DNA from: Prorocentrum cordatum | Lineage: Eukaryota; Sar; Dinophyceae; Prorocentrales; Prorocentraceae | Assembly: GCA_963575745.1 (NCBI GenBank) | Contig: CAUYUJ010014750.1 | Coordinates: 124,001 to 188,000 of the forward strand | Direction of reading: 5' to 3' | DNA length: 64,000 nt | Shown here: positions 537 through 51,079 of the stretch, piece after piece | How positions within the stretch are numbered: position 1 is the stretch's first letter | Layout: each line of letters opens with the position of its first letter | Notes under the pieces: model-generated | The model's database searches: none | What the model was told of the DNA's origin: nothing | What the model saw: only the letters and a program-made list of their open reading frames with translations | Position numbers and translations under genes: made by a program

Positions 537-718
537 ACCTCTTCCTCCTCCTCCTGTTCCTCCCCCTCCCCCTCCCCCTCCGGCTCCTCCTCCTCCTCCT
601 CCTCTCCTCCTCCTCCTCCTCCTCCTCCTCCTCCTCCTCGTCCTCCTCTTCCTCCTCCTCCTCCTCCTCCTCCTCCTCCTCCTCCTCCTCCTCCTCCTCC
701 TCTTCCCTTCTTCTTATT
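537..718. repeat. (CCT)n microsatellite
   Basis: Nearly pure CTC/CCT trinucleotide tract with a few C/T interruptions. It produces artificial poly-Pro, poly-Leu and poly-Ser ORFs. Confidence 0.95.
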
Positions 719-975
719 AATAATATGATTTATTCTCATGAGTATCATTATTCTATTATTATCATTCTTCATATTCTTCTTATTGTTACTACTATTCGTA
801 TTCTGATCATTCTCATTCTTATTAATGATATGATTAGTATTATGATTATACTGCTTATTATTATTCGTAGTAGTAGTATTATTAGTATCAGTACTATTTA
901 TCAGTATTGGTATTCGTACGATTATTACAATGATAATTATTCGTATCATTATTATTAGTAGTAGTTTTATTATTC
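719..975. repeat. Degenerate ATT-rich tract
   Basis: An AT-rich stretch of decayed ATT/TATT trinucleotides directly abuts the CCT tract and stands out from its GC-rich surroundings. No gene is seen. Confidence 0.8.
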
Positions 976-1054
976 CTCCTCCTCCTCGCCCCGGGGGGGG
1001 AGCGTTACGTCATAGGGTTGGGGGGGCATGACGCCCGTCATGCCCCAATCAATG

Positions 1055-1340
1055 AATATCTCTGAGCCCGAAGTGTAAATATGGTCTCAAACGGAACTGG
1101 CCACGACACCTCGTCGGCGGTATTTCTGAGCCCAGAGTCGCGAGGATGCCTCATGCGAGGCTGGCTGGACAATCTCGCACGTGGCCTCTCGGAACCCAAG
1201 AGTTGAAAGGATGTCTCAGGTGGAACTGAAAAGACTACGTCCTGCGAGGCATCTCTGAGCCCAGAGGTGCGAGGCCGAATCTGGCTGGACCGTCTCGTGA
1301 GCAGCAGGGTTCCTGGGCCCAGAATTGAAAAATGTTGCGA
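1055..1340. repeat. Three degenerate units marked by TCTGAGCCC
   Basis: The motif A(T/C)(T/C)TCTGAGCCC recurs near 1061, 1125 and 1250. The last two are followed by a shared GAGGC...CTGGCTGGAC block. This is a short ancient tandem repeat with units of roughly 65-125 bp. Confidence 0.5.
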
Positions 1341-1379
1341 CGGGTCCTGTGCACCGGCGTGCGCACGCCGCCGCCGAGG

Positions 1380-1562
1380 CAGCTGTCGCCGCCACCGCCA
1401 CAGCCGCCGCCGCCGCCGCCGTCGACGTCATCGTCGTAGTCCCATGTCCTCCTCCCTCTTCTCCTTATCCTCCTCGTGTTTTTCCTCCTCCTCCTCCTCC
1501 TCCTCCTCCTCCCTGGGTTTCCATGGCTCCTCCTCCAGACATTTCTGAATGGGCTAGTTGCG
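1380..1562. repeat. GCC/CCT tracts plus a dispersed 60-bp block
   Basis: GCC and CCT microsatellites at 1380-1512 are followed at about 1512-1562 by a block (TTTCCATGGCTCCTCCTCC, then CTGAATGGGCTA and TTGCGATAC). The same block recurs at about 8873-8933 next to a predicted intron end of the helicase gene. Two dispersed copies joined to the same CTCCTCC tract suggest a small mobile or introner-like sequence. Confidence 0.55.
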
Positions 1563-6974: not shown

Positions 6975-8841
6975 GGGGGGCGAAGCCCAGAGACGCTGTA
7001 TAATGCAACTCCCATGGCGGGGTCCTCGACGAGCCACTGCAGACAGCTTCTGATGGCGTCACCTAGGCTGTCCCATGAGAGCTCCAGGTCGAGCGGTGCT
7101 GCTATCCGGTCTGCAAAGTTCTTTTCCATGAAGGCACGGGCTTTCCCGATGGCAATGTCGAGTCCCTTGATGACCTCGTCTCCTGCGTGCGAGGGCGAAG
7201 CCGGGATCCATGTGGTAAGATCTGTGATGGGGTCGAATCCCTTGTCGACCGCCAGTGTCCACCTGTTGCCCATGTCCCCCGAGTGCGATAAGCGAACCCA
7301 GAGTTTGGCGACTCTTCCATACTCAGAGAGCTCCCGTAGGCGCGATCCTGTAGCGGCGCCGAACATCCTCCAGTCACCGATGATGACCACATTCCGGGTG
7401 GCGCGGGTGATTGCCACATTCACTCTGTTGGAATTGTCCATGAAGCCCCAGTCGTGCCAACTGGTAGACCTGGTTGTCAGAAAGATGACCAGGTCGGCTT
7501 CGCCGCCTCTGCTGGAGTCAATGGTTGAAATGGTGAGCTTGCCGCTTGCCAGGTGCTCCTCAGCGAGGCTTCGCAGCCCAGGGAAGCTCAAGGAGATGCC
7601 GGTGAGCTCTGAGCTGCGCTGCACGAAGACGCCGGCGTGGTCACTGGCGTTGGTGGAACGGTCTTGGGGGGGGATTGTGGGTTCATTGCGTGAGGCTGCC
7701 CCGTCCTTCCCTTTCCCTTTGCCCCTGGTCTTGGTTTGCCTGAGGCTGCCACTGATGCTGCGTGCGCTTTGTGGCCATCCGTTTTCAAGGATGGCGCACT
7801 GCAGCTGGTAGCCGACGACCGCCCGCTCTGTGGTGCCGTTCCGTATGGCAGGCAGGAGGGCACGTACTATGTCTACAGTTTGCGCTGCCTCTGGTAGGTT
7901 GGCGTATCCTGCGTGGAGCCCCGAAGTGACTTCCAAAGAGGGGTTGTCCACCAGTAGGAAGCGGTGCCGCTTCTCTTTGCGCTGACTCCCTGGATCCAGG
8001 CCGCGCAACATGTGCTCCATGTCGTTCTTGGTGGTGCCCGCTGCCTTCGCTAGATCAACGACTCTGGTGTCGTTCCAGGGGAGGAAGTCCCGCCATAAGA
8101 GCACCTCGATTAGGGGCCTCTGCGACAAAGGGTCGGTTAGGCCGGTGCGCATTGTGTTGTTGTAAAAAGACACAATTTGGTCAGGCCAATAGCAGGGGGT
8201 GCATACGGTAGCAGAGGCTGAGCTGTACCACGGCCGACTGGTCGTCCCCCACGGCATGGTGAAGGCGGTCAAAGATGGAGAGGCATAGCCCTTGGTCCGC
8301 TGCTTTCCTGGAAATGACGGTGGGGAGGAGATGCTTGGGGTCTCCAACCAACACTAGATGTCCGCCGGAGCGGATGACGCTGTCCAGGGACATGGCGGCC
8401 ATTAGCTCGTGCGCCTGCCCTGCCTCGTCTATGATGAGTAGGGCGACTGGGGCGGCCTTCTGTAGTGCCTCCGCAGATTCATGTATGGCGATGATTGTCT
8501 TGGCGTCCTTGAGCAGCTGGGTCCTGAATGCGGGGAAGTCTTTGGAGGGTCCGCCTTCGTATGGGTACCTGCCGTTGGCCCTATGGTGATGTCGTCCAGG
8601 GGTGAGCACTGCCAGCTCCTTGGCCACCTTGAAGTCTTTGGCCAGGCGCACGCACCTGGCCGAGAACCCTGAGAAAGGGGCCCAACTTGTTGGCCTGGCG
8701 TGCGCTGATTAGACCGAGCGCCGGCTGGTCAGCGGCCGTGTTGGAACCTGCGGCCAGAACGACTGACAGTCCGTCCGGGAGTGCGTTGGACCAGGTGTCC
8801 ATGGTGGCAACGGGGAAGATTGTCTTGCCGGTTTCCATGGG
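6975..8841 (-). CDS. UPF1-like superfamily 1 (DNA2/NAM7-type) helicase core
   Basis: This is an ATP-dependent RNA/DNA helicase of the UPF1/SETX/DNA2 group. Motifs read in order on the minus strand. A Walker A end, PMETGKT (8841-8821), lies just after a possible splice acceptor AG; a Gly from the previous exon would complete GPMETGKT. Motif Ia-like VVLAAGSNTAAD is near 8.75 kb. Walker B LLIIDEAGQA is at 8441-8412, motif III LVLVGDPKHLLP at 8357-8322 and motif IV LCYRMHP at 8216-8196. A YANLPEAAQTVDIV segment is typical of the family, motif V-like STIDSSRGGEADLVIFL is at 7530-7480 and motif VI RVNVAITRATRNVVIIGD at 7426-7373. The frame changes near 8.67 kb and at the G5 run 8195-8199; across the latter YRMHP continues into CYWPDQIVSFYN, as expected. 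Upstream exons are not identified. Family assignment is firm. The substrate and the role (RNA decay, splicing or replication) cannot be told. Confidence 0.85.
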
Positions 8842-11448: not shown

Positions 11449-12780
11449 TCGTGAGCACACACACACACTCTCTCTCTCTTTCTCTTTCTCTAGGGAGGGA
11501 GGGGAGGGTGGCAGGCAGGGGGCGAGGACATGAGCATGAGCAGGCAGAGGCGAGAATGACAGACTAAAATGAATAACTTGCGTGCCGTGGTCTTCGTGGA
11601 TCGGAACCTACAGTGTCCTCCTGGAGGGGGGGGGACGGGCGGGAGGGGCAGGGGGCGGGAAGGAAGGGAGGTCCTTCCCCATCCCCTCCCCACTCGCCCA
11701 CCCTCACCGTCCCCCCCCCCCCCCCACACCCACCCTGACCCCCCACCAGATGCACGCTGGACGCCCGCCCCCCCCCCCTTCCTCTCCTCCCCCTCCCCCC
11801 CTTCCCCCCTCCCCCCCCCACCCCCACACACACACACACAGACACACACACACACACACACACGCACACACACACACACACACACGAGGGCCACGAAAGG
11901 CCTCCGACGAGCCGTGGACCTTGAGCCACAGAATCCGCAGTGGGAAGCCACTCCACGCGAACTGGGGAGCCAGGCAGCCCACGAGGGCCAGGAGCAACCG
12001 AATCGAAGGCCCAAAGCTCCCTCCAACACTTCAATTTCAGGACCTAGCAACCTCAATTCATCTGAGCAAAAGATGTCCACAGCACCGTGTCTGCAAGAAT
12101 GCTCATCTCTCATGGGTACACGCAGGCGATCCTGCTGCTCCTCGACCTCGCTCCCAAGTCCCCCCGCCGCTTCCTCCGCCCTCGCCCTGGTCCCCCTCCA
12201 GCGGCGCCGTCAGCCTGGCTAGCCGGGATTATCCCCTTTTCGGCGACGTGCTTTCGGACGAGCCCCAATCTCACATCATCGCCGAACACCTGCGCCGGGC
12301 GCCCGCCCTTCTCCTCCACCTCCTTCTCCTCCTCATTCTCCTCCTCCTGATTCCTGATTCCTGGTGCCTGGAAAGAACGTCGTTCGTAGCCCTCTCCTCA
12401 TACTCCCCCTCCTCTCCCCCTCCTCCTCCTCCTCATCCCCCTCCTCCTCCTCCTCGACTCCTCCTCCTCCTCCTCCAATCAGGGAGAGGAGCGTCAGGTT
12501 CCTCCCGACACTTTGGTCCTCTTGAGCGAAGGCATGTCGCCGTAGAGCTTCTTACTGAAATAAATCCGCCGGCCCCCTTGTGGGGCCACCAGGCTGTAGG
12601 CGCGGGTTCGCAGTTTCCAGTACCAGTTGTAGCTTGTAGTTTCCAGTGTTACAGTTCTGCTTCATGCTGGTTACTGTAACTAGTTGATTGACCGCGCGAG
12701 GGGGGGGGAGGCCCAAACAGAATTTTTTAACACCCCCTGGGCGCGTTGTCTGAATTGCTGGGGGGGCTCGAAATCGACAC
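11449..12780. repeat. Simple-sequence cluster (CT, poly-C, CA, CTC)
   Basis: (AC)n and (TC)n occur at 11457-11492, C-rich tracts at about 11,690-11,825, (CA)n at 11825-11885, and CTC/CCT tracts at about 12,305-12,350 and 12,405-12,478. Intervening sequence shows no supported gene. Confidence 0.8.
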
Positions 12781-12781
12781 G

Positions 12782-13801
12782 CCTCACGCAGATCCGCGGG
12801 GTCAGGGTCCAAAAACACAAGGGATTTGCCACATTTCTGAAATTCGGTGCCACCCCTCACGCAGATCCGCGGGGTCAGGGTCCAAAAACACAAGGGATTT
12901 GCCACATTTCTGAAATTCGGTGCCACCCCTCACGCAGATCCGCGGGGTCAGGGTCCAAAAACACAAGGGATTTGCCACATTTCTGAAATTCGGTGCCACC
13001 CCTCACGCAGATCCGCGGGGTCAGGGTCCAAAAACACAAGGGATTTGCCACATTTCTGAAATTCGGTGCCACCCCTCACGCAGATCCGCGGGGTCAGGGT
13101 CCAAAAACACAGGGATTTGCCACATTTCTGAAATTCGGTGCCACCCCTCACGCAGATCCGCGGGGTCAGGGTCCAAAAACACATGGGATTTGCCACATTT
13201 CTGAAATTCGGTGCCACCCCTCACGCAGATCCGCGGGGTCAGGGTCCAAAAACACAAGGGATTTGCCACATTTCTGAAATCGGTGCCACCCCTCACGCAG
13301 ATCCGCGGGGTCAGGGTCCAAAAACACAAGGGATTTGCCACATTTCTGAAATTCGGTGCCACCCCTCACGCAGATCCGCGGGGTCAGGGTCCAAAAACAC
13401 ATGGGATTTGCCACATTTCTGAAATTCGGTGCCACCCCTCACGCAGATCCGCGGGGTCAGGGTCCAAAAACACATGGGATTTGCCACATTTCTGAAATTC
13501 GGTGCCACCCCTCACGCAGATCCGCGGGGTCAGGGTCCAAAAACACAAGGGATTTGCCACATTTCTGAAATTCGGTGCCACCCCTCACGCAGATCCGCGG
13601 GGTCAGGGTCCAAAAACACAGGGGATTTGCCACATTTCTGAAATTCGGTGCCACCCCTCACGCAGATCCGCGGGGTCAGGGTCCAAAAACACATGGGATT
13701 TGCCACATTTCTGAAATTCGGTGCCACCCCTCACGCAGATCCGCGGGGTCAGGGTCCAAAAACACATGGGATTTGCCACATTTCTGAAATTCGGTGCCAC
13801 C
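12782..13801. repeat. 73-bp satellite, 14 tandem copies
   Basis: Fourteen copies of a 73-bp unit begin CCTCACGCAGATCCGCGGGG, include CAGGGTCCAAAAACACA and end TTTCTGAAATTCGGTGCCAC. Copies are nearly identical. Variation is mainly one base after ACACA (A, T or G), and two copies are 72 bp (near 13,110 and 13,280). Because 73 is not a multiple of 3, every frame rotates and stays open on both strands, giving many spurious ORFs. The homogeneity implies recent expansion or gene conversion. Confidence 0.97.
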
Positions 13802-13940
13802 CCTCACGCACATCCATCGCAAGGCGTGGTAACCCAAACTGCGAGTACTCCCTCGGCCCTTTAATCCCAAGGTGTGGTAACCAAGCTCGTAAACCATACA
13901 CGTCTTACCAATCGCCCTGTGTGGTAACCCCTCTTGTGAT
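13802..13940. repeat. Three GTGGTAACC repeats of about 48 bp
   Basis: AAGGCGTGGTAACCC, AAGGTGTGGTAACCA and CTGTGTGGTAACCCC occur about 48 bp apart directly after the 73-bp satellite. Confidence 0.6.
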
Positions 13941-19565: not shown

Positions 19566-19665
19566 NNNNNNNNNNNNNNNNNNNNNNNNNNNNNNNNNNN
19601 NNNNNNNNNNNNNNNNNNNNNNNNNNNNNNNNNNNNNNNNNNNNNNNNNNNNNNNNNNNNNNNNN
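19566..19665. other. Assembly gap (100 N)
   Basis: Exactly 100 unknown bases, the usual placeholder for a gap of unknown length. It joins the composite repeat to a satellite, so true distance and order here are uncertain. Confidence 0.98.
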
Positions 19666-36461: not shown

Positions 36462-39400
36462 GCAGCACCTGCGACGGTCGCGACGGCGATGGCGCGACGG
36501 TCTGGGCGACCGCGGCCGTGACGACAACACCGAAAGCGACGAACGGGAGTAACGGCTTCCAAATAATTCTCCCTTGGCAAGGCCTTGGCCTTCCAAGAAG
36601 ATCCAAAGGGCAAGCTGCCAAATGTGTGTTCTGGTCGTTCGGCGCGCGCGCGCATGCTGACTGGCGGGGGCCCTTATGGCGTTGTAGAGCGCGCGCTACC
36701 GCGGCAGCTCACTTGCCCTCCCGTTGTTTCTATAACGGGGGCTTTCAAGGTGGGCCCCTCGCGCATGTCATAAGAATCTCACGGAAGGGCCACCGTGCCA
36801 AAGTCTCTGGTGTAGCCCTCTCGGGCCCCTCCTGGAGCCGACCCAGGACGTCTTTGGAGAGGTGCTTCAGGACAGCTGCCCTGATGCTCTCGGGGGGCCT
36901 TCCTAGGGGTCTCTTCTGCGCTCTGGGAATCCCCCAGACCCCTCTGGGGAGCCTCCAGGCGACGCCACCTGGAGCAGAGGGCAAACCTGCCCTATCCTGC
37001 GGCGTGTAATTGTTCATAGCGAGCCGTCTGGGGCGTTCCAATGGCCATTCAATGGTTCCCCTGGATGGCATATGGAAGGCGTCATGGGCACCAGGAGCTC
37101 GCAGAAACTTGAAGACAAATGCGACTTCTCAACAGAGCGATTACTGTCCGCTTTGTGTCAGCCCTTGGGCCCCACATGGATTCCCCCGCGTCACTCCCGA
37201 GGCCGTGGTGGGCCCCCAAGGGAGGCATATAGAGGGCCTCTTGGGGCTATATCGCTGACAGACAACTGACAGAAACCGTGCTTTCTCAGCAACACGACTT
37301 CTGCCAATTTTCTGTCAGCTTTTGGGGCCCACCTGGACTCAATGGGGACCTTTCTGGGGCCATGATGGGGCCTACCCGGGAGCCGTGTGGAGGGCCTCAT
37401 GGGGCCCAAGAGTCGACTGAGGTCTGGAGCCCCAGGGCCACGCGGAAGGCCTCATGGGACCCTCCCGTGGGGCAGTGGACTCCGCGGGGTAAGCTTCGTC
37501 CCACAATATGGACTCGGGGGGGCAAGCTCCGCCCCGCAAGATGGACTCCGCAGGGCAAGCTCCGTCCGACAAGGTAGGCTCCGTAGGGTAACTTTCGTCC
37601 CACAAGATGGGCTCCAGAGCCTGCCCCACGGAGCCCATAAAGTGGGGCGGAACCTTACTCCACGGAGTCAATATCGCGGGACGGACCCTACCCTGTGGAG
37701 TCCAACTTGTGGGACGGAACCTACCCCGTGGAGTTGCCAAACTTGTGGAACGGAGCGTACCCCGTGAAGTCCCACAAGACGTCGGCACGCCCTCTGTCAG
37801 AATCCCTTCCCTACGGAGAAAGTGAGCCCACGATACCCGCCTCATCCCCAGCTGAATCTCAAGATCCCCTGTGCTTCAGAAAATGCGGACGCACCTTCCT
37901 TCTCAGAGTCCCTCTCAGACGGGGAGCGTGAGTCGACGCTATCCGGTTCCTGCCTTACTGAGACTATGCCTACCCTCTTTTTCGACATTAAAGCGTGGAT
38001 TCGCCCGCTCTCTCTCTCTCTCTCTCAGAATCCGCCCTAGGAAAGGAGGGTGAGTCATTGCGTGCCGGACCATGCCTTACTGAACCGCGCCCTGCCTGCC
38101 CCTCCGAAGCCTCAGGGGAACCCCCAAGAGAGGTCAAGGAGACCTCAGAAGCAACGCAACAAGAATGCAACGCTACAGCCGCGCCACTACACAGCTCGGC
38201 TATTCAACTTCACCATCCACACTGGCAGGTATGCGCGACAGCGCGATTGGATATGTGACGGGCCACGCGGCAGCACATACGTGGGCTGCAAGGCCCTCCG
38301 CGCCCATCCGACGGTGCAAATGTAAGGTCCCGCCAATTGCGAAGGAGCAGGGAAGAGAGGGGGGAAGGGGGAGGGGTGCCGGAACTGAACAGGGCCTGGG
38401 AGGGAAGGTTGCCACGTTCCCTCGAAGACTGACGATCGACGCATTTTGTGGAGCAACTGCGAGCCGAGCAGCACCGCATCTTCCGAGCATTCCGACACGA
38501 ATGCTACCACATTGATCCAGGCACGCCGCAACGCAACCGCTGGCAACCCGCATCGCCCTCATACTCCTCATCCTCATCATGATCATGGTCATCACCACCA
38601 TCACCATTACCATCTGTCCTCCTCCCTCCTCCATGATCCACCCCACATCTCCCTCCATCGCCACTCCCGCTCCCGCACCCTTCCCCTGATCCACATCGCC
38701 CGCCACCACCCTGACCCCATGTCCTCCTGATGCAGGTGCTGATCGTCCCTTTCAGAACCTCCTTGCGTTCCTCGCCCAGGTCCTCGACATTAGTCCACAT
38801 GTTCAGTATGGTCCTCCACCTGCTCGTCACATCCCTCCGCCTTCCTGTCCCTCCACCTCGGCCTCCCCCTTCTTCCTCTACCATTCCCTCATCCTCCCTC
38901 TCCCCCCGCTGTTGGTTGAGTATGGCGGGCTGCCAGAGTAGAGAACTGCAGCTCCACCGGGCGAGCGGCCCGTGCAGGCCACTCCGAGGATGACACGCGG
39001 CACCGTAAGATCACCCCCCGAGCTGATTGTTGCAGAGGCCCCTTCGAAGAGGAATGGGAGCACGGGAATCGCGCGAAAAGGGGGCGAGGAGGACAATGAG
39101 CGATGGATGATATTCATCAGGCAAGCCCCAAGAGCAAACGTGCGCTTACACAGGATCTCGATCTGGACCCGATGCAACAATTTTCGCGGCACTCCGCGCC
39201 TCCCCATTCCCCAAACAGCGCTTGCACGCGGTAGTCCTCGCATGTCCGCTAAGGAACTGGGCCTCACTGATGGTCGGGCCGCCTTGTGGCAGCCCGTCGC
39301 CGCCCGTCGCCGGCGTCCGTCGCCGCTGCTACTGGGCCAGACTGTGCGACACGGCGAAGAGCCCCCGGAATGGCCCTCAACATTACCATACCAAAGGACT

Positions 39401-39985
39401 TTGGTATGAACATTACTGCTGGGGTTCGTTTCGGGGGCCCTGTTGGACCTCCTTGGGGCCCTCTCGGGGCCTGCTTGAAAACCTTTTGGGCCCATCGAAG
39501 ACCGCTTGGGGGGACTCAGAAGAGCCCCAAGAGGGCCCCAAGAGAGCTCCATGGAACGTAATCCCGTTAACAGCACTGCTTACTTAGGCAGCGGGGTGTT
39601 CACTGAATGTTTGCCTTTCGTTTTCGCCAGCGCTGAAGAACACAGCTGCTGCAGTGAGGCAACGGAGCGTTCACTGAATATTTGCCCTTCGTTTTCGCCA
39701 CTGTTTAAGAAAACGCGCGCTTTACCCGCTGCGGAGTCTGCATTCAAGGTGCGTGATTGCATGTCACAGGGCGTTTGGCCCGCAAGAGCGCTGGCGATTT
39801 CGGTTGTGTGTGTGTGTGTGTGGGGGGGGGGGGGGCGCGTCCACAGCGCCCTCTTGAAACCCTCTTGAGGTCCTCTTGGGTTTTCGTGGAATCCTCCTGG
39901 GCCCCACCAAGACCGCCTGGGAAGGCTGAAAAGAACTCCAAGGAGAGCCTAAGACGGCTCAAGAAGCCCCCGGCACGGCCCCCAA

Positions 39986-40019
39986 CAGTATCATACAACA
40001 TGCATTTGGTATGATACTG
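39986..40019. repeat. Fold-back (CAGTATCATAC / GTATGATACTG)
   Basis: Perfect 11-bp inverted repeat with a 12-nt spacer. Looser complementarity extends outward through GGGGGCC/GGCCCCC sequence. It recurs in copy 2 near 49,537-49,570. Confidence 0.8.
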
Positions 40020-40291
40020 GTGGGGTTCGGTTCGGGGGCCCTGTTGGAACTGTTTGGGGCCCTCTTGGGGCCTTCGTCGGGGCCCTGTTGGACGGCGTCG
40101 ACTCTTTGCGCGCCCTCCGCGGGGCGGGCCACATAGATTGCACTACGTGTGTACACCGCGTAGATTGCTCCACATAGTTGTTGCCACACAGCTTACACAA
40201 CATAGACTGCACCACATAGATTCTCCTTTCTAAAGAGAGAAAAGAACTCTACCCCCCCTTCCGGACTTATCGCTTCCCCCTGGGATATTAT

Positions 40292-40299
40292 GACTTCAT
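40292..40299. other. Left target-site duplication of the 4.35-kb element
   Basis: GACTTCAT. The right copy is GATTTAAT (44,653-44,660) and the empty site in copy 2 is GATTTCAT (49,844-49,851). Each filled-site copy differs from the empty site by one base. Confidence 0.8.
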
Positions 40300-40310
40300 G
40301 AGGCTGAGGG

Positions 40311-40336
40311 ACAACGAATATGAAGAGATTCGTTGT
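40311..40336. repeat. Left terminal hairpin of the element
   Basis: Nine-bp stem ACAACGAAT / ATTCGTTGT with an 8-nt loop (40,320-40,327), followed inward by GAGTGGGGGGT. Confidence 0.85.
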
Positions 40337-40435
40337 CGAGTGGGGGGTCGCCCACCCTCTTTCGTCACTTAACGGTTGAAGAGAAAAAAAATGGAGGAGG
40401 AAGGGAGGAGACGGGGGAGGAGGAGACGTTGCAAA

Positions 40436-40719
40436 ACACAAAACAAAAAGGAGGAGGAGAAGGAGGAGGAGAGGGAGAGGGAGGGAGAGAGAGAGGGAGG
40501 GAGGGAGGGAGGGAGGGGGGGGGAGAAGGGAGGGAAAGGGAGAGGGAGGGAGGAGGAAAGAGGCGACTGCGAGAGCTGGATGCGCATGCGGCCGCATGTA
40601 TTCCCAGCGATCGGCTCTGCTTCGGGGCACCGCGCCGACCCCGCATGTGTATTCAGCGACGGCGGCGACGACGACGGCGACGACGACGACGGCGACGGCG
40701 CCGACGGCGGCGACGACGG

Positions 40720-40752
<33 letters not shown>

Positions 40753-40890
40753 TGGCGACGACGACGGCGGCGGCGACGACGACGGCGATGACGACGACGG
40801 CGACGACGACGACGGTGACGACGACGGCGACGGCGACGACGACGGCGACGGCGGCAACGGCGACGACGGCGACGACGACGACGAGGTGCC
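40436..40890. repeat. 5' module of gene 1: purine tract then CGA tract
   Basis: GGAGGA/GGGAGAGA purine sequence at 40,436-40,565 and CGACGACGGCGAC triplets at 40,656-40,888. The same order precedes gene 2. The poly-Asp, poly-Thr and poly-Arg ORFs here are artefacts. Confidence 0.75.
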
Positions 40891-41066
40891 GAAACTGGGA
40901 TGATGTCGGCGACAAGTTGTGGAAACATTTGAAATCAGCACATGGGTTGAAAATCAGCAAAAAGGTGCATGAGGCTAAAAAGGAAGGCGGTGGCGTGTAA
41001 AATTGTGGATAAAAGAATTCCCTCAGCGCGCGCATGCTTTAAACAATGTGTTCACACATGGTGTCT

Positions 41067-41092
41067 CTTCTTCTTCTTCTTTCAATCAACAG
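41067..41092 (+). promoter_or_regulatory. Pyrimidine-rich splice or trans-splice acceptor before gene 1
   Basis: A CTTCTTCTTCTTCTTTC tract ends TCAATCAACAG, with AG at 41,091-41,092, 12 nt before the ATG at 41,105. It could accept an upstream exon or a spliced leader. Confidence 0.5.
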
Positions 41093-41104
41093 TCTGTTGT
41101 GCAT

Positions 41105-42061
41105 ATGCCGTTCCCATGGTATTTCTACCAGAACGGATATGGCCCATATTGTCAAACAGCATATGGACAATCTTTTGTCGGCCCCGTCGGCGGCCAGAGG
41201 GCGGATATCAAAGATAGCTCATCGTCCTCTTCGTCCTCGGACGACGATGACGACGACAAGGCTAATGTTGCATTTGGAGAAATCAATGCAAAGTCGAAAG
41301 GTTCACCCCCAACCGATCATGCCGATGAGTTAAAACCAACGCCAGGGGCGCAACCGAAAAGTTTGGCACTCAGCAGCAAGAAGCGTAGTTGGGCGGATAG
41401 TTCGCAAGATGACGACGATCTCAGCGTCAAGAGTTATCCCAAATCGATAATCCCGCCTCCTCAACCGACCAAGTTTATCGACCCGCACTGTTATGATATT
41501 AAAGACATTTGGATTATTGCCGGAGACGACGCAATGGATATCAATTTCAATAACACGGTAGTGCGCGCAAGCAAAGAGAAGGGATGGAAACAGTTATCTG
41601 TTCGGCTTCCCATTGACAATATTGTTCTTCATGCGTCAAATGCCATTAGTTGTTTGGTACACGCAGTAGATAGCGGATTGCTTGCCGCCGCAGCGAAAAA
41701 CAAATTGAATTGCAATGCTGCAGAAGATATCAACTTGCATTGCGTCATCAGTGAAACATCTCTGCATAATTGGCCTACGTACAAATACGCAGATGCTCAC
41801 CTTGGCAGCGTGGATAACATAAACTCGGCAATGCGAGCTTTTACTGTTGACGGCCGGTCAACTGCTCAGATTGGTGGGGCACCTTCTAAGCTATTCAGGA
41901 ATGAGTTCAAGAGTTGTGCTATTCTTGGTTCGAATGGTCTTTTCGGCCGCATAGCTATTCCAATTTACAAAAACAGACGTTGCTATATGAAACGTGCAGC
42001 CCTGACAGATTCAAACTTGGTTGAAGAGCTGCGGTGCGCTCAGAGGTGGAAGGGGGAGTGA
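41105..42061 (+). CDS. Element gene 1: unrecognised protein, 318 aa, interrupted by in-frame TGA
   Basis: The first in-frame ATG (41,105) lies 12 nt after a strong pyrimidine-AG acceptor. The 34 codons open upstream include the acceptor and are probably not translated. The protein has an aromatic N-terminus (MPFPWYFYQNGYGPYC), a Ser8-Asp6 acidic tract near residue 45-60 and a basic patch SKKRSWADS. A globular-looking C-terminal half follows (DIKDIWIIAGDDAMDINFNN, then WKQLSVRLPIDNIVLHASNA). TGA at 42,059-42,061 stops the frame, but 43 more coding-like codons continue in frame to TGA 42,191-42,193 (about 361 aa if read through). Lower GC and different codon use set it apart from the GC-rich host genes. 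No catalytic motif or family recognised. A DNA-binding, capsid or transposase-accessory role is only guesswork. Confidence 0.75.
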   Translation: MPFPWYFYQNGYGPYCQTAYGQSFVGPVGGQRADIKDSSSSSSSSDDDDDDKANVAFGEINAKSKGSPPTDHADELKPTPGAQPKSLALSSKKRSWADSSQDDDDLSVKSYPKSIIPPPQPTKFIDPHCYDIKDIWIIAGDDAMDINFNNTVVRASKEKGWKQLSVRLPIDNIVLHASNAISCLVHAVDSGLLAAAAKNKLNCNAAEDINLHCVISETSLHNWPTYKYADAHLGSVDNINSAMRAFTVDGRSTAQIGGAPSKLFRNEFKSCAILGSNGLFGRIAIPIYKNRRCYMKRAALTDSNLVEELRCAQRWKGE

Positions 42062-42193
42062 GCGGCGAATGGAATTCTTCTTGATGAGGTGCAATGCGTG
42101 GTACATTCAATGCTGGACAATATTAATGTTGTTTCTGAAGCACCTCAAAGCACTTTGGTTGTTCTCCTCACTCCGGATGGGGAGCGACTATGA
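42062..42193 (+). pseudogene. Gene 1 continuation beyond the in-frame TGA
   Basis: Same frame as gene 1, 43 sense codons including ILLDEVQCVVHSMLDNINVV and PQSTLVVLLTPDGERL, then TGA. It lies 50 nt before the shared 3' module. Gene 2's stop lies 54 nt before its own module, which suggests that this distal stop is the original one. Confidence 0.55.
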
Positions 42194-42242
42194 GTTTCAA
42201 GATGGTTGCTCGCCATTACGTGTTGTCTCTCCTCCCTCTCCT

Positions 42243-42341
42243 CCTCGTTCTCGCCCTAAGCTGGCTGCTCGCTAGCATCTCTAAGGTAGCTGCTAGCTAC
42301 CGCGCACTCAGCTTCTCTGCAGAACCAACGCGAGGAAAACG
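42243..42341 (+). promoter_or_regulatory. Shared 3' module, copy 1 (after gene 1)
   Basis: CCTCGTTCTCGCCCTAAGC, GGCTGCTCGCTAGCAT, then GGTAGC-TGCTA-GCTACC (6-bp hairpin), CTCTGCAGA and CGAGGAAAA. About 100 bp matches 43,672-43,788. Being 3' to both genes, it may act in 3' end formation. Confidence 0.65.
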
Positions 42342-42531
42342 GCACCATATTTCCTTTTGATCATGAAGATGTCCGCGCTTTGCGCTCTCCTCCGCCGTCT
42401 CCGCGGTGCTCATAGGACCTGTGGTGGATGCAGGTATTGTGGAGTTAAAATATAATGCAGCATTGCTCGTGGGCTCTGTGGTGCTCATAGGATCTGTGGT
42501 GCTCCTAGTAATAGTAATATTTGTAGTAGTA

Positions 42532-42705
42532 AGAGGGGAACGAAGAGGGAGAGAGGCGAACAAACGAGGGAGAAGGAGAAGGAGGAGGAAGACGAAAACG
42601 ACAACGACGGCGACGACGACGACGACGACAACGATGACAACGACGACAACGACGACGGCGGCGACGACGACGACGGCGGCGGCGGCGAAGACGACGACGA
42701 CGGGA
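42532..42705. repeat. 5' module of gene 2: purine tract then CGA tract
   Basis: GAGGGGAACGAAGAGGGAG to GGAGGAGGAAG (42,534-42,592), then CGACGACGACG triplets to 42,703, repeating the layout upstream of gene 1. Confidence 0.75.
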
Positions 42706-42743
42706 TTATTATCTCATTACCAATCCCGTTATCATTATCATCA

Positions 42744-42776
42744 TGGTCCTCTTCCCCTTCGTCTTCTTGCCATAAG
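42744..42776 (+). promoter_or_regulatory. Pyrimidine-rich acceptor before gene 2
   Basis: TCCTCTTCCCCTTCGTCTTC ends at AG 42,775-42,776, 60 nt before the ATG of gene 2. Further AGs lie downstream, so the exact site is uncertain. Confidence 0.4.
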
Positions 42777-42835
42777 TGGCTCAAACCTAGAAGCCGACAT
42801 AGCTAGTCAACTGCTGGTTGATAACAAGTTAGCTC

Positions 42836-43618
42836 ATGGCTAACGTCTCATGTGGTAGTGGGAGCACAGGCGATGCTCGCTTTCCGCACAGCAAATTGAT
42901 TCTCACAGATCTAGAGCAGCAAGGCGTCCCTGATCCGAATAATAACGCAGTAGTGCTTCTGCATCAGCAGACGAGTCACCATGTGAAGGTATTAACCGAC
43001 GGTGGCGCTTCAGGGCCGCGCGACAAGATCAGTGGGTTCGCATCGCAAACATACACATCGTTCGATAAGATCGGCGTGCCAATCGGAATGGCTTTCTGGG
43101 GTTCGCCCCACTGGGCATCAAAAGATCAAGATAGCGTTACATTGCAAACGGAATCTTCGCAGGAGTTCAAAACAAACGCTTTCGAGACTATGGGTTGGCT
43201 GGCAGGATCAGCAATGATACTGATGTGCTTCAACGAAAACTACAAAGTTGAATTCTGGCATCCAGTGTTCAACAAGAAGCATGGTACCGAGCCAGATACG
43301 CGGGACCCTCGTCAGCTTACAGTGTTGGAAAGTTACTTCCGACAGTGCCAACCCATCGTGTCGGGTTCAGAGCATCACCTGATCGGAGGCGGTAAGCACC
43401 CTCGGGTATTGGTGGCAATGCTCGTTCCAGAGCGTTTCAGGGATCTGCTGACGTACAAAGGCACGAAGCCCGACGTCGGCAAAACTATGCATCGCATCCT
43501 ACAAACACTCCAACAAGGCCAGGAATACGCAATCGAGCTCCGCGGTCAATCTTTCGAGCTGGCCTACGAAATTCACCTCGCAAAGGAGGAAAGCATTAGT
43601 GACATGGACTTGTCGTAG
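42836..43618 (+). CDS. Element gene 2: unrecognised protein, 260 aa
   Basis: Intact ATG-to-TAG frame with no interruption. The N-terminus is polar (MANVSCGSGSTGDARFPHSK). The middle contains PIGMAFWGSPHWASKDQDS and MGWLAGSAMILMCFNENYKV. The C-terminal part includes KHPRVLVAMLVPERFRDLL and a helical end, with an acidic tail SISDMDLS. No signal peptide, clear membrane segment, Walker, DDE, HUH or zinc-finger pattern is evident. Codon use is less GC-biased than in the minus-strand host genes. It sits in the same 5'/3' module pair as gene 1, without evident sequence similarity to it. Function unknown; being encoded inside a bounded mobile element, a role in its replication, movement or packaging is an inference. 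Confidence 0.8.
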   Translation: MANVSCGSGSTGDARFPHSKLILTDLEQQGVPDPNNNAVVLLHQQTSHHVKVLTDGGASGPRDKISGFASQTYTSFDKIGVPIGMAFWGSPHWASKDQDSVTLQTESSQEFKTNAFETMGWLAGSAMILMCFNENYKVEFWHPVFNKKHGTEPDTRDPRQLTVLESYFRQCQPIVSGSEHHLIGGGKHPRVLVAMLVPERFRDLLTYKGTKPDVGKTMHRILQTLQQGQEYAIELRGQSFELAYEIHLAKEESISDMDLS

Positions 43619-43671
43619 ACGCATAGAGCCTGGGAAAGTCTGCGGGCTCGGTGCCTGGGGCCCCCTTGCGT

Positions 43672-43788
43672 CCTCGTTCTCGTCCTAAGCTGGCTGCTCG
43701 CTAGCATTCCCAAGGCAGCCGCTAGCTACCACGCGCTTAGCCTGGTTCTGCAGAGAGAACGTTTGACTCAGAAAAACACGAGGAAAAG
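43672..43788 (+). promoter_or_regulatory. Shared 3' module, copy 2 (after gene 2)
   Basis: CCTCGTTCTCGTCCTAAGC, GGCTGCTCGCTAGCAT, GGCAGCCGCTAGCTACC, CTGCAGAGA and CGAGGAAAA: about 80% or more identical to 42,243-42,341 by eye. It starts 54 nt after the gene 2 stop. Confidence 0.65.
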
Positions 43789-43794
43789 CTGAAT

Positions 43795-44577
43795 TCTTTT
43801 TGTATTCTACCACACAAAGTCGTTCCATACTAGGCCACAGTATTAATTCTTCTGTATTCCGCCACAAGGGAATCCTTTCGTATTCCGCCACAGGGGAATA
43901 CAGAGAATCCTTTTGTGTTCCGCCACAAAAAGAAACCTTTTGTATTTCGCCACAAAGAAAATAGTTGTGTATTCCGCCACAAAGGGATCCTTTTGCATTC
44001 CGCCACAAAAGAATTCAATTTAAATTTATAAATTAATTCGAAAATTTGTGTTTTCACAGCGTTCTGGCAATTTTCGATAAAAAAAGTATATATTGTTTTT
44101 TTTCATTGCCAGACACAGCGTTTCAGCAATTATTAATTACAAATTTTGTTATCATTGCCAGGCACAGCGATCACAGAATTTTTAATGATGTTCCTACTAT
44201 TGGTAAAATCGATACCCATAGTTGGCAAATCATTGAAAATGCTATGATCGCTGTGCGTGGCAATGAAAAAAACAATATTTTTAATTGAAAGAGCTGAATT
44301 GCAGTGCCTGGTAATGAAAAAAACAATTTGTTTATTAAAAACTGCGAAAACGCGGTGAAAAAAGAAACATATGTTTTCTAATTATTTTATGAATTGAGTT
44401 TCTTCTGTGGCAGGTTAAAAAAGGATTTCTTTTGTGGCGGAATACCAAAGGATCCCTTTTGTAGCGAAATACAAAAAGAATTCCTTTTGCGGCGGGATAC
44501 AAAAGGGTTCCCTTTGTAGCGGAATACAAAGGAATTCTTTTTGTAGTGAATACAACAGGGAGTCCTTTCATGGCGGC
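43795..44577. repeat. AT-rich iteron palindrome (origin- or telomere-junction-like)
   Basis: An imperfect dyad is centred near 44,207. The outer left arm has seven GTATTCCGCCACAA-type motifs (43,802, 43,854, 43,880, 43,915, 43,942, 43,969, 43,995; mostly 26-27 bp apart). The outer right arm has six or seven inverted copies (CTTTTGTGGCGGAATAC, about 44,405-44,575). Inner arms carry CATTGCCAGGCACAGCG-type motifs, about three per side, in opposite orientation. The centre is ACTAT-GGTA, AAATCGA loop, TACC-ATAGT. Such symmetric iterons in an AT-rich core are known from replication origins and from inverted telomere junctions of linear replicons; that role here is inferred. Confidence 0.8.
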
Positions 44578-44615
44578 TTCCCACCCCCCACATCCCAAGG
44601 ACTACCCCCCACCCT

Positions 44616-44641
44616 ACAACGAATGCAAAAAGTTTCGTTGT
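44616..44641. repeat. Right terminal hairpin of the element
   Basis: Eight-bp stem ACAACGAA / TTCGTTGT with a 10-nt loop, mirroring the left end including the adjacent ACCCCCCAC. Confidence 0.85.
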
Positions 44642-44660
44642 AGCTCATTCTGGATTTAAT

Positions 44661-45776
44661 ATATTTTTTCTGCGCACTCGTCCATCCTAAATACCTATAC
44701 GACCACCCTTCGGGTGATAAGGAGGTTCGGGGGGGGGGAAACCAACGTCTCACTCGATCGGTCTCACTATCGATCTCACGATCGGTCTCAATATCGGTCT
44801 CGCTCGATCGATCTCCCTCGATCGATCTCACAATCGATCTCACTCGATCTATATCACACTTGATCTGACTATCGATCTCACAATCGATCTCACAATCGAT
44901 CTCACAATCGATATCACATTCGGTCTCAACCTCGATCTCACTATCGATATCACAACCGCTCTCACAATCAACGTCGTCATCATCATCATCAGCAGCAACA
45001 TCAATATCAACATCATCATCACCAACATCATCATAATCGGGACATCGTCCTCATCATCAACACCAACATCGTCATCATCACGGTCATCAACATCATCGGG
45101 ACACCACCATCATCCTCATCATCATCACCATCATCACACTCATCATCATCAGCATCATCATCAGCAACATCGGGACACAGTCATCGTCATCATCATCATC
45201 AGCAGCAGCATCACCATCGGGACACCATCATGATCATCATCATCATAATCATCATCAGCATCATCATCATCAGCAGCATCATCATCATCATCGGGATACC
45301 ATCATCATCATCTCGTCCTCATCATCGACATCATCATCATCAGCATCATCAACACCATCATCAGCATCATCATCTGGGCACCATCATCATCATTACCAAC
45401 ATCAGCATCATCATCATCATCACAATCATCACCATCACCATCGGGGCGCCATCATCATCAACATCATCAGCATCACCAACATAATAATCATCATCATCAT
45501 CATCGGGACGCCATAATCATCATCAACATCATCATCATCATCAACATCATCATCATCATCGGGACACAATCATAATCAGCATCATCAACATCAACATCAT
45601 CATACTCATCATGATCGGGACACCATCATCGTCATCATCATGATCATCAACATAATCATCATGATCATCATCATCCTCATCATCGGGACACCATCAGCAT
45701 CGTCATCATCATCATCATCAGCATCATCATCATCATACTCATCATCATCGGGACACTATCACCCTCATATCATCAT

Positions 45777-45807
<31 letters not shown>

Positions 45808-45820
45808 GTCATCATCATCA
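44661..45820. repeat. Block M copy 1: 12-bp ATCGATCTCACA array then CAT array
   Basis: It begins CTGCGCACTCGTCCATCC and a GACCACCCTTCGGGTGATAAG hairpin-like stretch. A degenerate 12-bp array (TCTCACTATCGA, about 44,740-44,975) follows. Then (CAT)n to 45,820 is punctuated by CGGGACACC every 40-120 bp. Homologous to 49,852-51,080. Poly-Ile, -His and -Ser ORFs are artefacts. Confidence 0.9.
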
Positions 45821-48800
45821 GCAGCACCTGCGACGGTCGCGACGGCGATGGCGCGACGGTCTGGGCGACCGCGGCCGTGACGACAACACCGAAAGCGACG
45901 AACGGGAGTAACGGCTTCCAAATAATTCTCCCTTGGCAAGGCCTTGGCCTTCCAAGAAGATCCAAAGGGCAAGCTGCCAAATGTATGTTCTGGCCGTTCG
46001 GCGCGCGCGCGCATGCTGACTGGCGGGGGCCCTTATGGCGTTGTAGAGCGCGCGCTACCGCGGCAGCTCACTTGCCCTCCCGTTGTTTCTATAACGGGGG
46101 CTTTCAAGGTGGGCCCCTCGCGCATGTCATAAGAATCTCACGGAAGGGCCACCGTGCCAAAGTCTCTCGTGTAGCCCTCTCGGGCCCCTCCTGGAGCCGA
46201 ACCAGGACGTCTTTGGAGAGGTGCTTCAGGACAGCTGCCCTGATGCTCTCGGGGGGCCTTCCTAGGGGTCTCTTCTGCGCTCTGGGAATCCCCCAGACCC
46301 CTCTGGGGAGCCTCCAGGCGACGCCACCTGGAGCAGAGGGCAAACCTGCCCTATCCTGCGGCGTGTAATTGTTCATAGCGAGCCGTCTGGGGCGTTCCAA
46401 TGGCCATTCAATGGTTCCCCTGGATGGCATATGGAAGGCGTCATGGGCACCAGGAGCTCGCAGAAACTTGAAGGCAAATGCGACTTCTCAGCAGAGCGAT
46501 TACTGTCCGCTTTGTGTCAGCCCTTGGGCCCCACATGGATTCCCTCGCGTCACTCCCGAGGCCGTGGTGGGCCCCCAAGGGGGGCATATAGAGGGCCTCT
46601 TGGGGCTATATAGCTGACAGACAACTGACAGAAACCGTGCTTTCTCAGCAACACGACTTCTGCCAATTTTCTGTCAGCTTTTGGGGCCCACCTGGACTCA
46701 ATGGGGATTTTTCTGGGGCCATGATGGGGCCTACCCGGGAGCCGTGTGGAGGGCCTCATGGGGCCCAAGAGTCGACTGAGGTCTTGACTACCTACCAGAC
46801 CACCCCAACCCAACCCGAAGACCCGAATTTCGGGTTGGGGGGGGTAAGGGTTCCACACGTGTTTTTTCGATGTTTCCCGACCCCCCCCCAACTGGAAATC
46901 GAAGGTAAGTCTGAGCCTTCGGGTTGGGTTGGGGTGGTTTGGTGGGTGGTGAGGTCTGGAGCCCCAGGGCCACGTTGAAGGCCTCATGGGACCCTCCCGT
47001 GGGGCAGTGGACTCCGCGGGGTAAGCTTCGTCCCACAATATGGACTCGGGGGGGCAAGCTCCGCCCCGCAAGATGGACTCCGCAGGGCAAGCCCCGTCCG
47101 ACAAGGTATATAGGCTCCGTAGGGTAACTTTCGTCCCACAAGATGGGCTCCAGAGCCTGCCCCACGGAGCCCATAAAGTGGGGCGGAACCTTACTCCACG
47201 GAGTCAATATCGCGGGACGGACCCTACCCTGTGGAGTCCAACTTGTGGGACGGAACCTACCCCGTGGAGTTGCCAAACTTGTGGAACGGAGCGTACCCCG
47301 TGAAGTCCCACAAGACGTCGGCACGCCCTCTGTCAGAACCCCTTCCCTACGGAGAAAGTGAGCCCACGGTACCCGCCTCATCCCCAGCTGAATCTCAAGA
47401 TCCCCTGTGCTTCAGAAAATGCGGACGCACCTTCCTTCTCAGAGTCCCTCTCAGACGGGGAGCGTGAGTCGACGCTATCCGGTTCCTGCCTTACTGAGAC
47501 TATGCCTACCCTCTTTTTCGACATTAAAGCGTGGATTCGCCCGCTCTCTCTCTCTCTCTCTCTCAGAATCCGCCCTAGGAAAGGAGTGTGAGTCATTGCG
47601 TGCCGGACCATGCCTTACTGAACCGCGCCCTGCCTGCCCCTCCGAAGCCTCAGGGGAACCCCCAAGAGAGGTCAAGGAGACCTCAGAAGCAACGCAACAA
47701 GAATGCAACGCTACAGCCGCGCCACTACACAGCTCGGCTATTCAACTTCACCATCCACACTGGCAGGTATGCGCGACAGCGCGATTGGATATGTGACGGG
47801 CCACGCGGCAGCACATACGTGGGCTGCAAGGCCCTCCGCGCCCATCCGACGGTGCAAATGTAAGGTCCCGCCAATTGCGAAGGAGCAGGGAAGAGAGGGA
47901 GGAAGGGGGAGGGGTGCCGGAACTGAACAGGGCCTGGGAGGGAAGGTTGCCACGTTCCCTCGAAGACTGACGATCGACGCATTTTGTGGAGCAACTGCGA
48001 GCCGAGCAGCACCACATCTTCCGAGCATTCCGACACGAATGCTACCACATTGATCCAGGCACGCCGCAACGCAACCGCTGGCAACCCGCATCGCCCTCAT
48101 ACTCCTCATCCTCATCATGATCATGGTCATCACCACCATCACCATTACCATCTGTCCTCCTCCCTCCTCCATGATCCACCCCACATCTCCCTCCATCACC
48201 ACTCCCGCTCCCGCACCCTTCCCCTGATCCACATCGCCCGCCACCACCCTGACCCCATGTCCTCCTGATGCAGGTGCTGATCGTCCCTTTCAGAACCTCC
48301 TTGCGTTCCTCGCCCAGGTCCTCGACATTAGTCCACATGTTCAGTATGGCCCTCCACCTGCTCGTCACATCCCTCCGCCTTCCTGTCCCTCCACCTCGGC
48401 CTCCCCCTTCTTCCTCTACCATTCCCTCATCCTCCCTCTCCCCCCGCTGTTGGTTGAGTATGGCGGGCTGCTAGAGTAGAGAACTGCAGCTCCACCGGGC
48501 GAGCGGCCCGTGCAGGCCACTCCGAGGATGACACGCGGCACCGTAAGATCACCCCCCGAGCTGATTGTTGCAGAGGCCCCTTCGAAGAGGAATGGGAGCA
48601 CGGGAATCGCGCGAAAAGGGGGCGAGGAGGACAATGAGCGATGGATGATATTCATCAGGCAAGCCCCAAGAGCAAACGTGCGCTTACACAGGATCTCGAT
48701 CTGGACCCGATGCAACAATTTTCGCGGCACTCCGCGCCTCCCCATTCCCCAAACAGCGCTTGCACGCGGTAGTCCTCGCATGTCCGCTAAGGAACTGGGC

Positions 48801-49851
48801 CTCACTGATGGTCGGGCCGCCTTGTGGCAGCCCGTCGCCGCCCGTCGCCGGCGTCCGTCGCCGCTGCTACTGGGCCAGACTGTGCGACACGGTGAAGAGC
48901 CCCCGGAATGGCCCTCAACATTACCATACCAAAGGAACATTATGGTAATGAACATGGCCCTTTGGTATGAACATTACTGCTGGGGCTCGTTTCGGGGGCC
49001 CTGTTGGACCTTCTTGGGGCCCTCTCGGGGCCTGCTTGAAAACCTTTTTGGCCCATCGAAGACCGCTTGGGGGGACTCAGAAGAGCCCCAAGAGGGCCCC
49101 AAGAGAGCTCCATGGAACGTAATCCCGTTAACAGCACTGCTTACTTAGGCAGCGGGGTGTTCACTGAATGTTTGCCTTTCGTTTTCGCCAGCGCTGAAGA
49201 ACACAGCTGCTGTAGTGAGGCAACGGAGCGTTCACTGAATATTTGCCCTTCGTTTTCGCCACTGTTTAAGAAAACGCGCGCTTTACCCGCTGCGGAGTCT
49301 GCATTCAAGGTGTTGGATTGCATGTCACAGGGCGTTTGGCCCGCAAGAGCGCTGGCGATTTCGGTTGTGTGTGTGGGGTGGGGGGGGCGCGTCCACAGCG
49401 CCCTCTTGAAGCCCTCTTGAGGTCCTCTTGGGTTTTCGTGGAATCCTCTTGGGCCCCACCAAGACCGCTTGGGAAGGCTGAAAAGAACTCCAAGGAGAGC
49501 CTAAGACGGCTCAAGAAGCCCCCGAAACGGCCCCCAACAGTATCATACAACATGCATTTGGTATGATACTGGTGGGGTTCGGTTCGGGGGCCCTGTTCGA
49601 ACTTCTTGGGGCCCTCTTGGGGCCTTCTTCGGGGCCCTGTTGGACGGCGTCGACTCTTTGCGCGCCCTCCGCGGGGCGGGCCACATAGATTGCACTACGT
49701 GTGTACACCACATGGATTGCTCCACATAGCTGTCGCCACACACCTTACACAAGATAGACTGCACCACATAGATTCTCCTTTCTAAAGAGAGAAATGAACT
49801 CTACCCCCCCTTCTGGACCTATCGCTTCCCCCTGGGATAATATGATTTCAT
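45821..49851. repeat. Segmental duplication block A, copy 2
   Basis: Near-identical to 36,462-40,299 with isolated substitutions. Larger differences are the 162-bp MITE at 46,788-46,949 and about 23 extra bases in the loop of a fold-back near 48,930-48,960. Ends in the empty site GATTTCAT (49,844-49,851), with no 4.35-kb element. Confidence 0.95.
46788..46949. mobile_element. 162-bp MITE, private to duplication copy 2
   Basis: Terminal inverted repeats of 33 bp (46,788-46,820 and 46,917-46,949) differ at 3 positions and begin C(T/C)ACC(T/C)ACCA, ending CAACCCGAAG. Flanks TGAGGTCTTGA (46,777-46,787) and TGAGGTCTGGA (46,950-46,960) form an 11-bp duplication with one mismatch; the unoccupied copy near 37,410-37,430 has this site once. 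Mutator-like elements usually make 9-11-bp duplications. If only the perfect 8 bp counts, hAT-like is possible. Too short to encode a protein, so non-autonomous. Confidence 0.9.

Positions 49852-51079
<1,228 letters not shown>

Follow-up and report, generated by a model that had tools for sequence, protein, structure and literature searches.

A hairpin-ended, multi-gene DNA transposon family in the dinoflagellate Prorocentrum cordatum and an internally deleted member

To our knowledge, little has been described of what moves DNA in the multi-gigabase genomes of dinoflagellates. The present work concerns an insertion of 4,353 base pairs (bp) in a stretch of 64,000 nucleotides (nt) from Prorocentrum cordatum, hereafter the window, together with the transposon family to which the insertion belongs. 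Among described systems, Kyakuja-Dileera-Zisupton (KDZ) transposons have a Cys-rich transposase, hAT transposons make 8-bp target duplications, Tn7- and Mu-type transposition combines a transposase with an ATPase partner, and Replitrons are elements of eukaryotic algae. Two papers describe KDZ elements as large and equipped with accessory genes, and report 8-bp duplications for Zisupton and for a Dileera-lineage element (PMC12730594, PMC12477816). KDZ transposases can exceed 1300 amino acids (aa) in length (PMC12477816).

The insertion in the window is likely to be a non-autonomous, internally deleted version of a DNA transposon that measures about 10-14 kilobases (kb) and bears genes designated A, B and C and usually a fourth, D, all on one strand, with B as the putative transposase. 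It belongs to a dispersed family in which the anatomy of the element, its copies, their target duplications, constraint on the genes and a mosaic of modules can be observed directly. Its ends are presumably unlike those of hAT transposons, and Pfam finds no hAT transposase domain or BED finger in genes A-D. The likeness to hAT lies in the 8-bp duplications and in the combination of terminal and subterminal repeats, the latter as in Kat1 (PMC4763223). With Tn7 and Mu there is an analogy only, in that a possible DDE-like protein adjoins a P-loop-like protein whose ATPase role is putative. Titles and the openings of abstracts in the literature on dinoflagellate, protist, KDZ, Replitron and Pyramimonas transposons hold no description of the family, which appears to be so far undescribed.

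The insertion, its ends and its dispersed copies

The original prediction had proposed an exact insertion bounded by an empty site in a paralogous copy. Flank alignments with BLAST confirm those coordinates: a discrete block of 4,353 bp at 40300-44652 has an unoccupied counterpart at 49844-49851, and the tandem-copy flanks are 97.3% identical on the left (37418-40299 versus 46950-49851) and 87.8% identical on the right (44653-45828 versus 49844-50957). The boundary features are as follows.

49844-49851, unstranded: empty site GATTTCAT in the paralogous tandem copy (empty/filled comparison)
40292-40299, unstranded: left target-site duplication GACTTCAT (comparison with the empty site)
44653-44660, unstranded: right target-site duplication GATTTAAT (comparison with the empty site)
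40300-40348, plus strand: left terminal inverted repeat (TIR) with hairpin (inverted alignment, fold; 40 scored genome matches of 40300-40370)
44604-44652, minus strand: right TIR with hairpin at about 44614-44643 (inverted alignment, fold)
43853-44554, unstranded: right subterminal imperfect palindrome in which short iterons (GTATTCCGCCACAAAAGGAAT type) face opposite ways on either side of an AT-rich core

The source of the empty site is a tandem duplication (36462-40299 and 45821-49851, about 9.4 kb apart) with 97-99% identity in two BLAST pieces. Its right-hand parts (44653-45828 and 49844-50957) are 88% alike, for which microsatellite change is perhaps responsible.

The features claimed for the ends are borne out as well. 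The two target duplications in the window agree at 6 of 8 positions and are read as a decayed 8-bp unit, other copies reaching 8 of 8. The inverted ends align without gaps at 34 of 49 positions and, by our own count, at 14 of the first 19; the best 49-mer alignment scores 35, whereas 500 dinucleotide shuffles reach 30 at most. Folded as DNA, both ends form hairpins that are better than all 200 shuffles, none of which equals either (z scores of -4.9 and -4.6). The left hairpin arms lie within element positions 11-38 (40310-40337) and are followed by GTGGGGGGT, giving a left-end geometry for this first group of elements of 10 nt, a 12-nt arm, a 4-nt loop and a second 12-nt arm. On the right, arms of 10 nt each flank a 10-nt loop at positions 10-39. 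The lower G+C content reported for the interior also holds, with 0.39-0.52 per kb in 41001-45000 versus about 0.6 across most of the window.

Copies were sought in a genome of 4.13 Gb in 21,875 contigs, with the window on contig C13901; the published Prorocentrum cordatum assembly has 4.15 Gb, 22,724 scaffolds and 59.7% GC (PMC10666404). A query of the first 71 bases of the element (40300-40370) identified a minimum of 40 left ends, that of the window among them, with 40 of 54 candidates scored. From the 39 other loci, 20 were fetched together with about 9.4 kb of downstream sequence, extended by a further 5 kb in four cases. At ten of these loci both ends were located, which with the window makes 11 copies. 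Their target duplications match at 8 of 8 positions in four copies (AACAAAAA, CAAAAAAA, AATGGGAA and TTGGTGTA), at 7 of 8 in one, at 6 of 8 in four including the window and at 4 of 8 in two. When the left flank of one copy is compared with the right flank of a different copy, the mean is 2.5 of 8 and none of 110 pairs reaches 7 or more. Inverted ends and fixed-length duplications in dispersed copies make the family one of TIR DNA transposons, and further genomic copies with 8-bp duplications, the check proposed originally, exist. In 19 copies the 50 bp flanking the left end are 61% A+T, compared with 41% for the window. The iteron units of the right subterminal region are absent from the left half in 10 of 12 copies, with two units each in L012 and L026.

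Gene content, deletion and a second subfamily

The closest relative of the window copy, C3880, measures 14,012 bp end to end and is about 90% identical to it on either side of a 7.35-kb segment. Element bases 1-585 correspond to C3880 500-1089 and bases 582-3490 to C3880 8438-11286; the 7.35 kb between them, missing from the window copy, carries genes A and B and the start of gene C. By this comparison, the window element is an internally deleted copy of a multi-gene transposon and is probably unable to move on its own. The earlier remark that no transposase motif is present is true of the window copy, yet a candidate, B, occurs in full-length relatives; it goes unseen in the window because the segment with A and B has been deleted. 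The interior retains the following features.

40640-40884, plus strand: GAC-rich microsatellite, the right edge of which (about 40881-40884) is the junction of the 7.35-kb deletion relative to C3880
40881-42195, plus strand: gene C remnant (ORF1), 5' end deleted, frame broken near 41000, in-frame TGA at 42059-42061
42234-42323, plus strand: segment following gene C, repeated after gene D (82.6% identical to 43663-43754)
42726-42855, plus strand: gene D leader, with homology to the start of gene A (leader and first codons, MANV.CGG) as found in full-length copies
42836-43618, plus strand: gene D (ORF2), intact open frame of 260 aa
43663-43754, plus strand: segment following gene D, a repeat of 42234-42323

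The two genes originally described inside the insertion therefore fare differently: ORF2 is an intact open frame, and ORF1 is a broken remnant of gene C. Near 41000 the remnant shifts out of the frame of its upstream part, at a point where L026 and L027 are unbroken, and past the TGA its homology to P0013, the one relative of gene C in a large protein database, continues in frame. A BED zinc finger considered for ORF1, from LWKHLKSAH, was dropped once L027 and L011 revealed the longer N-terminal end of gene C. Hairpins considered for the segments after genes C and D were likewise rejected, as these fold no better than shuffles. The gene D leader is 82.6% identical to L011 1242-1373 over 132 bp and includes the palindrome core TCAACTGCTGGTTGA (42807-42821), the sole copy of that core in the window. 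In one subfamily the palindrome, GTCAACTGCTGGTTGAC, recurs between genes (L011 3704, 3832, 5744, 5791, 5911, 7719, 7944 and 8016).

Full-length relatives show the gene order. Two copies with perfect duplications, C16156 (11,066 bp) and C17410 (11,076 bp), read A-B-C-D, and both ends plus homology to all four genes occur in these two 11.07-kb copies and in one 14.0-kb copy. Among the 20 fetched loci, homology to A is present in 11, to B in 11 and to both in eight. With 50 of the 98 genomic B matches used, gene B lies within 10 kb downstream of 22 of the 40 left ends, on the same strand. A further copy with both ends, C3803 (10,403 bp by our own count), has uninterrupted A and B frames and C in two frames; its duplication is uninformative because AT repeats flank the copy. 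An extra conserved frame of about 200 aa lies between the left end and A in five of the 20 loci (L009, L017, L021, L023 and L027; 79-97% alike), at about 1,320-2,040 when the loci are oriented by their left ends; no such frame was found in the window copy, L011, L016 or C3803.

Gene A encodes 727 aa in L011, with the P-loop-like motif GISECGKS at residue 334 and DDGKF at residue 391. Across the ten other fetched loci with A, GISECGKS is kept in five, damaged in two (L023 and L027) and lost with its region in three; it is also kept in C3803 and in the second subfamily described below. Gene B is Cys-rich, with frames of 454-479 aa. The motifs DVVxDGN, YLDG[YF]H and NSQAAEQ are common to all four aligned rows, which come from two subfamilies about 45% identical, and supply a candidate D/D/E triad of D213, D354 and E380, respectively (first-row numbering). 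In the genome, gene B has 98 matches (93 of 296 candidates scored), among which 20 uninterrupted frames of 479 aa have near-equal scores and 88-89% identity to the query. This pattern suggests recent spread, with identity measured to the query and not from frame to frame. A second B group comprises 21 matches at 39-47% identity to the query.

Database relatives of gene D, 21 in all, show 28-92% identity and include two labelled Pyramimonas sp. (P0006 and P0020), for which horizontal transfer, shared ancestry and contamination are options. Genomic matches of D number 150 (147 of 224 candidates scored) and outnumber the B places found beside D; many D loci may therefore belong to further subfamilies with an undetectably diverged B.

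Between subfamilies, the ratio of nonsynonymous to synonymous substitution (dN/dS, Nei-Gojobori) is about 0.2-0.4 for A, B and C, while the synonymous sites of D are saturated. Between close copies the same ratio is mostly 0.45-1.1, and for the window versus C3880 it is 1.70 for gene C (316 codons) and 0.65 for gene D. Low values between subfamilies and high values between close copies are expected of genes that are kept by transposition and decay after insertion.

Turning to the second B group, the comparison rests on one element, C15357, which is 9,779 bp long. Its A is 83% identical over residues 204-699 and its B 45% identical to the first group. The ends of the first group were not found at this locus (5.4 kb upstream of B and 3.9 kb downstream of D); instead its own ends were located through a 16-bp inverted match. 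The left end reads GAGAGAGAGT, followed by a 12-nt arm, a 4-nt loop and a 12-nt arm with one mismatch, and the right arms occupy the same positions, again with one mismatch. The target duplication is identical at 8 of 8 positions, TCGAGAAA standing on both sides. The left end thus keeps the 10+12+4+12 geometry of the first subfamily, while the arms show no obvious sequence similarity between the groups, and the right ends are less alike. Iteron units of the GTATTCCGCCACAAA type and a CATTGCCAGGCACAG core recur toward the right end in both groups. The modules form a mosaic. Between L011 and L009, synonymous divergence (dS) is 0.59 for A, 0.38 for B and about 2 for D. Of the 21 second-group places, 12 have gene D on the strand of B and 3.25-3.93 kb downstream of it; among the 37 first-group places examined, 6 have D beside B, and both counts are lower bounds (58 of 98 B matches and 100 of 150 D matches were entered).

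Activities can be proposed for the four proteins. B would act as a DDE-like transposase, recognizing a hairpin or dyad that begins about 10 nt in from either end and cutting the target with an 8-bp stagger. The dyad may serve as duplex binding sites or as an extruded hairpin. A may be a P-loop ATPase that assists B, perhaps at the iteron array, such that A would go with the shared array and B with the ends. C could be an accessory protein, and D appears to be an optional module because it is lacking from C3803, which has both ends. To move, the window copy would need B, and perhaps A too, from a full-length relative. Taken further, the family may constitute a new eukaryotic transposon superfamily, as the original prediction had also suggested. 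This broader claim is possible, and we hold it tentatively. Such a superfamily would be marked by a Cys-rich DDE-like B matched to hairpin ends conserved in geometry and not in sequence, by a dedicated P-loop ATPase A and a one-sided iteron array common to the subfamilies, by the swapping of C, D and the extra leading gene, and by recent activity in a dinoflagellate.

Points against the proposal and rival explanations

Several observations count against the proposed transposon and its mechanism. The sequence fetched for ten of the 20 loci yielded no right end, two of the 11 copies have duplications that agree at 4 of 8 positions only, and two of the three non-window copies at 6 of 8 (L012 and L019) have microsatellite-like flanks. 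No compensatory changes were found in the hairpin stems of the first subfamily among 20 left and 11 right ends. For C15357, the boundary was picked with the duplication in view, the end hairpins lack a shuffle control, and A is 58% identical over residues 1-231 and spread over three frames there. Gene D is not detectable in C3803 with 21 D proteins at E<=0.01, and was found beside only 18 of the 58 B places checked, a lower bound. None of genes A-D has a Pfam, NCBIfam or PDB-sequence match at E<=0.001, nor do C and D, the two that were scanned, match PHROGs at that threshold. Weaker hits were judged implausible, among them coronavirus nucleoproteins (best E 0.0044) to a part of C rich in Tyr and Gly and adhesins (best E 0.0049) to a part of C rich in Ser and Asp. 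Besides being damaged in two loci (L023 and L027), the P-loop pattern of A appears in 122 of 5000 shuffles, and the term ATPase for A is therefore used with moderate confidence. In the B of L027, VP replaces AE at the proposed catalytic E.

The rival that survives best, and one that is possible without being favoured, makes the family a divergent branch of KDZ, with B as a short KDZ transposase bearing Cys clusters and with A, C and D as accessory genes. The length of the duplications fits (8 of 8 in 4 of the 11 copies and in C15357), and large size, additional genes and a Cys-rich protein are points of likeness. The Cys clusters and the D/D/E spacing of B presumably resemble those of CxC5/CxC6-KDZ proteins. 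Against this, hmmscan of five B proteins (L011, L027, L033, L034 and L037) yielded neither a KDZ nor a CxC model at E<=10. A genome search with CxC6 gave no match, but the control genomes gave none either. B frames of about 454-479 aa also differ from KDZ transposases, which can exceed 1300 aa (PMC12477816), and the hairpin ends and P-loop-like partner of this family do not appear in the KDZ passages of PMC12730594 and PMC12477816. The duplication length fits, but with no profile similarity found for B and with a D/D/E triad that is a candidate only, the family is not filed under KDZ.

It is unlikely that B is itself accessory and that the recombinase is A or a protein not yet seen, such as the extra frame before A in five copies. 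In keeping with this idea, neither A nor B matches a known family, A has, for the greater part of its length, diverged less than B between the two subfamilies, and the extra frame of L027 has a sub-threshold hit to the Replitron HUH model (Pfam PF21859; E 0.13, 13.1 bits versus a cut-off of 28.5). However, that hit is unrepeated in the L009 frame, L011, L016 and C3803 lack the extra frame, and Replitron was rejected as a candidate. The D/D/E-like triad sits in B, and it is B and the ends that differ together between subfamilies while A is shared.

Marginally less probable still is an integrated virus-like or plasmid-like replicon, in which A would be a replicative helicase, the iteron palindrome an origin and D a capsid or Rep-like protein. 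An iteron array toward one end and a P-loop-like motif in A with FDD about 57 residues on are what such a replicon could have. Nevertheless, no capsid, polymerase, protease, packaging or Rep match was found (Pfam, NCBIfam and PDB sequences for A-D, PHROGs for C and D). Relatives of B, C and D are lacking in viral_contigs and those of D also in prokaryote genome_contigs, P0003, a relative of D, has no match in phages, and D is missing from C3803, a copy with both ends. Of the possibilities first raised for the insertion, the mobile element with hairpin ends and 8-bp duplications is thus upheld by the dispersed copies, and nothing was found in support of a virus. That the locus is not mobile at all, and reflects unequal duplication or ordinary host genes, draws on the position of the site within the roughly 9.4-kb tandem duplication and is refuted, to near certainty, by dispersed copies with duplications of their own and by full-length relatives of the same build.

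Wider meaning and other features of the window

The proposed transposon family appears to have been amplified recently and brings with it four conserved, unannotated proteins. Among eukaryotic cut-and-paste elements, a P-loop partner would be out of the ordinary. If hairpin geometry and not sequence ties the ends to the transposase, the two subfamilies would offer a natural case of a wholesale change in end recognition with the architecture retained. In practical terms, masking such elements would remove many unexplained 'genes' from the genome, gene D alone accounting for 150 scored matches.

The window has no match to a spliced-leader pattern. A run of 100 N at 19566-19665, away from the element, is probably an assembly gap, and a minisatellite with a period of about 73 bp occupies 12778-13815. 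Pieces of an SF1 helicase-like gene (Pfam AAA_11 and AAA_12) lie at 6875-8708 on the minus strand and account for the sole above-cut-off Pfam hits among ten frames.

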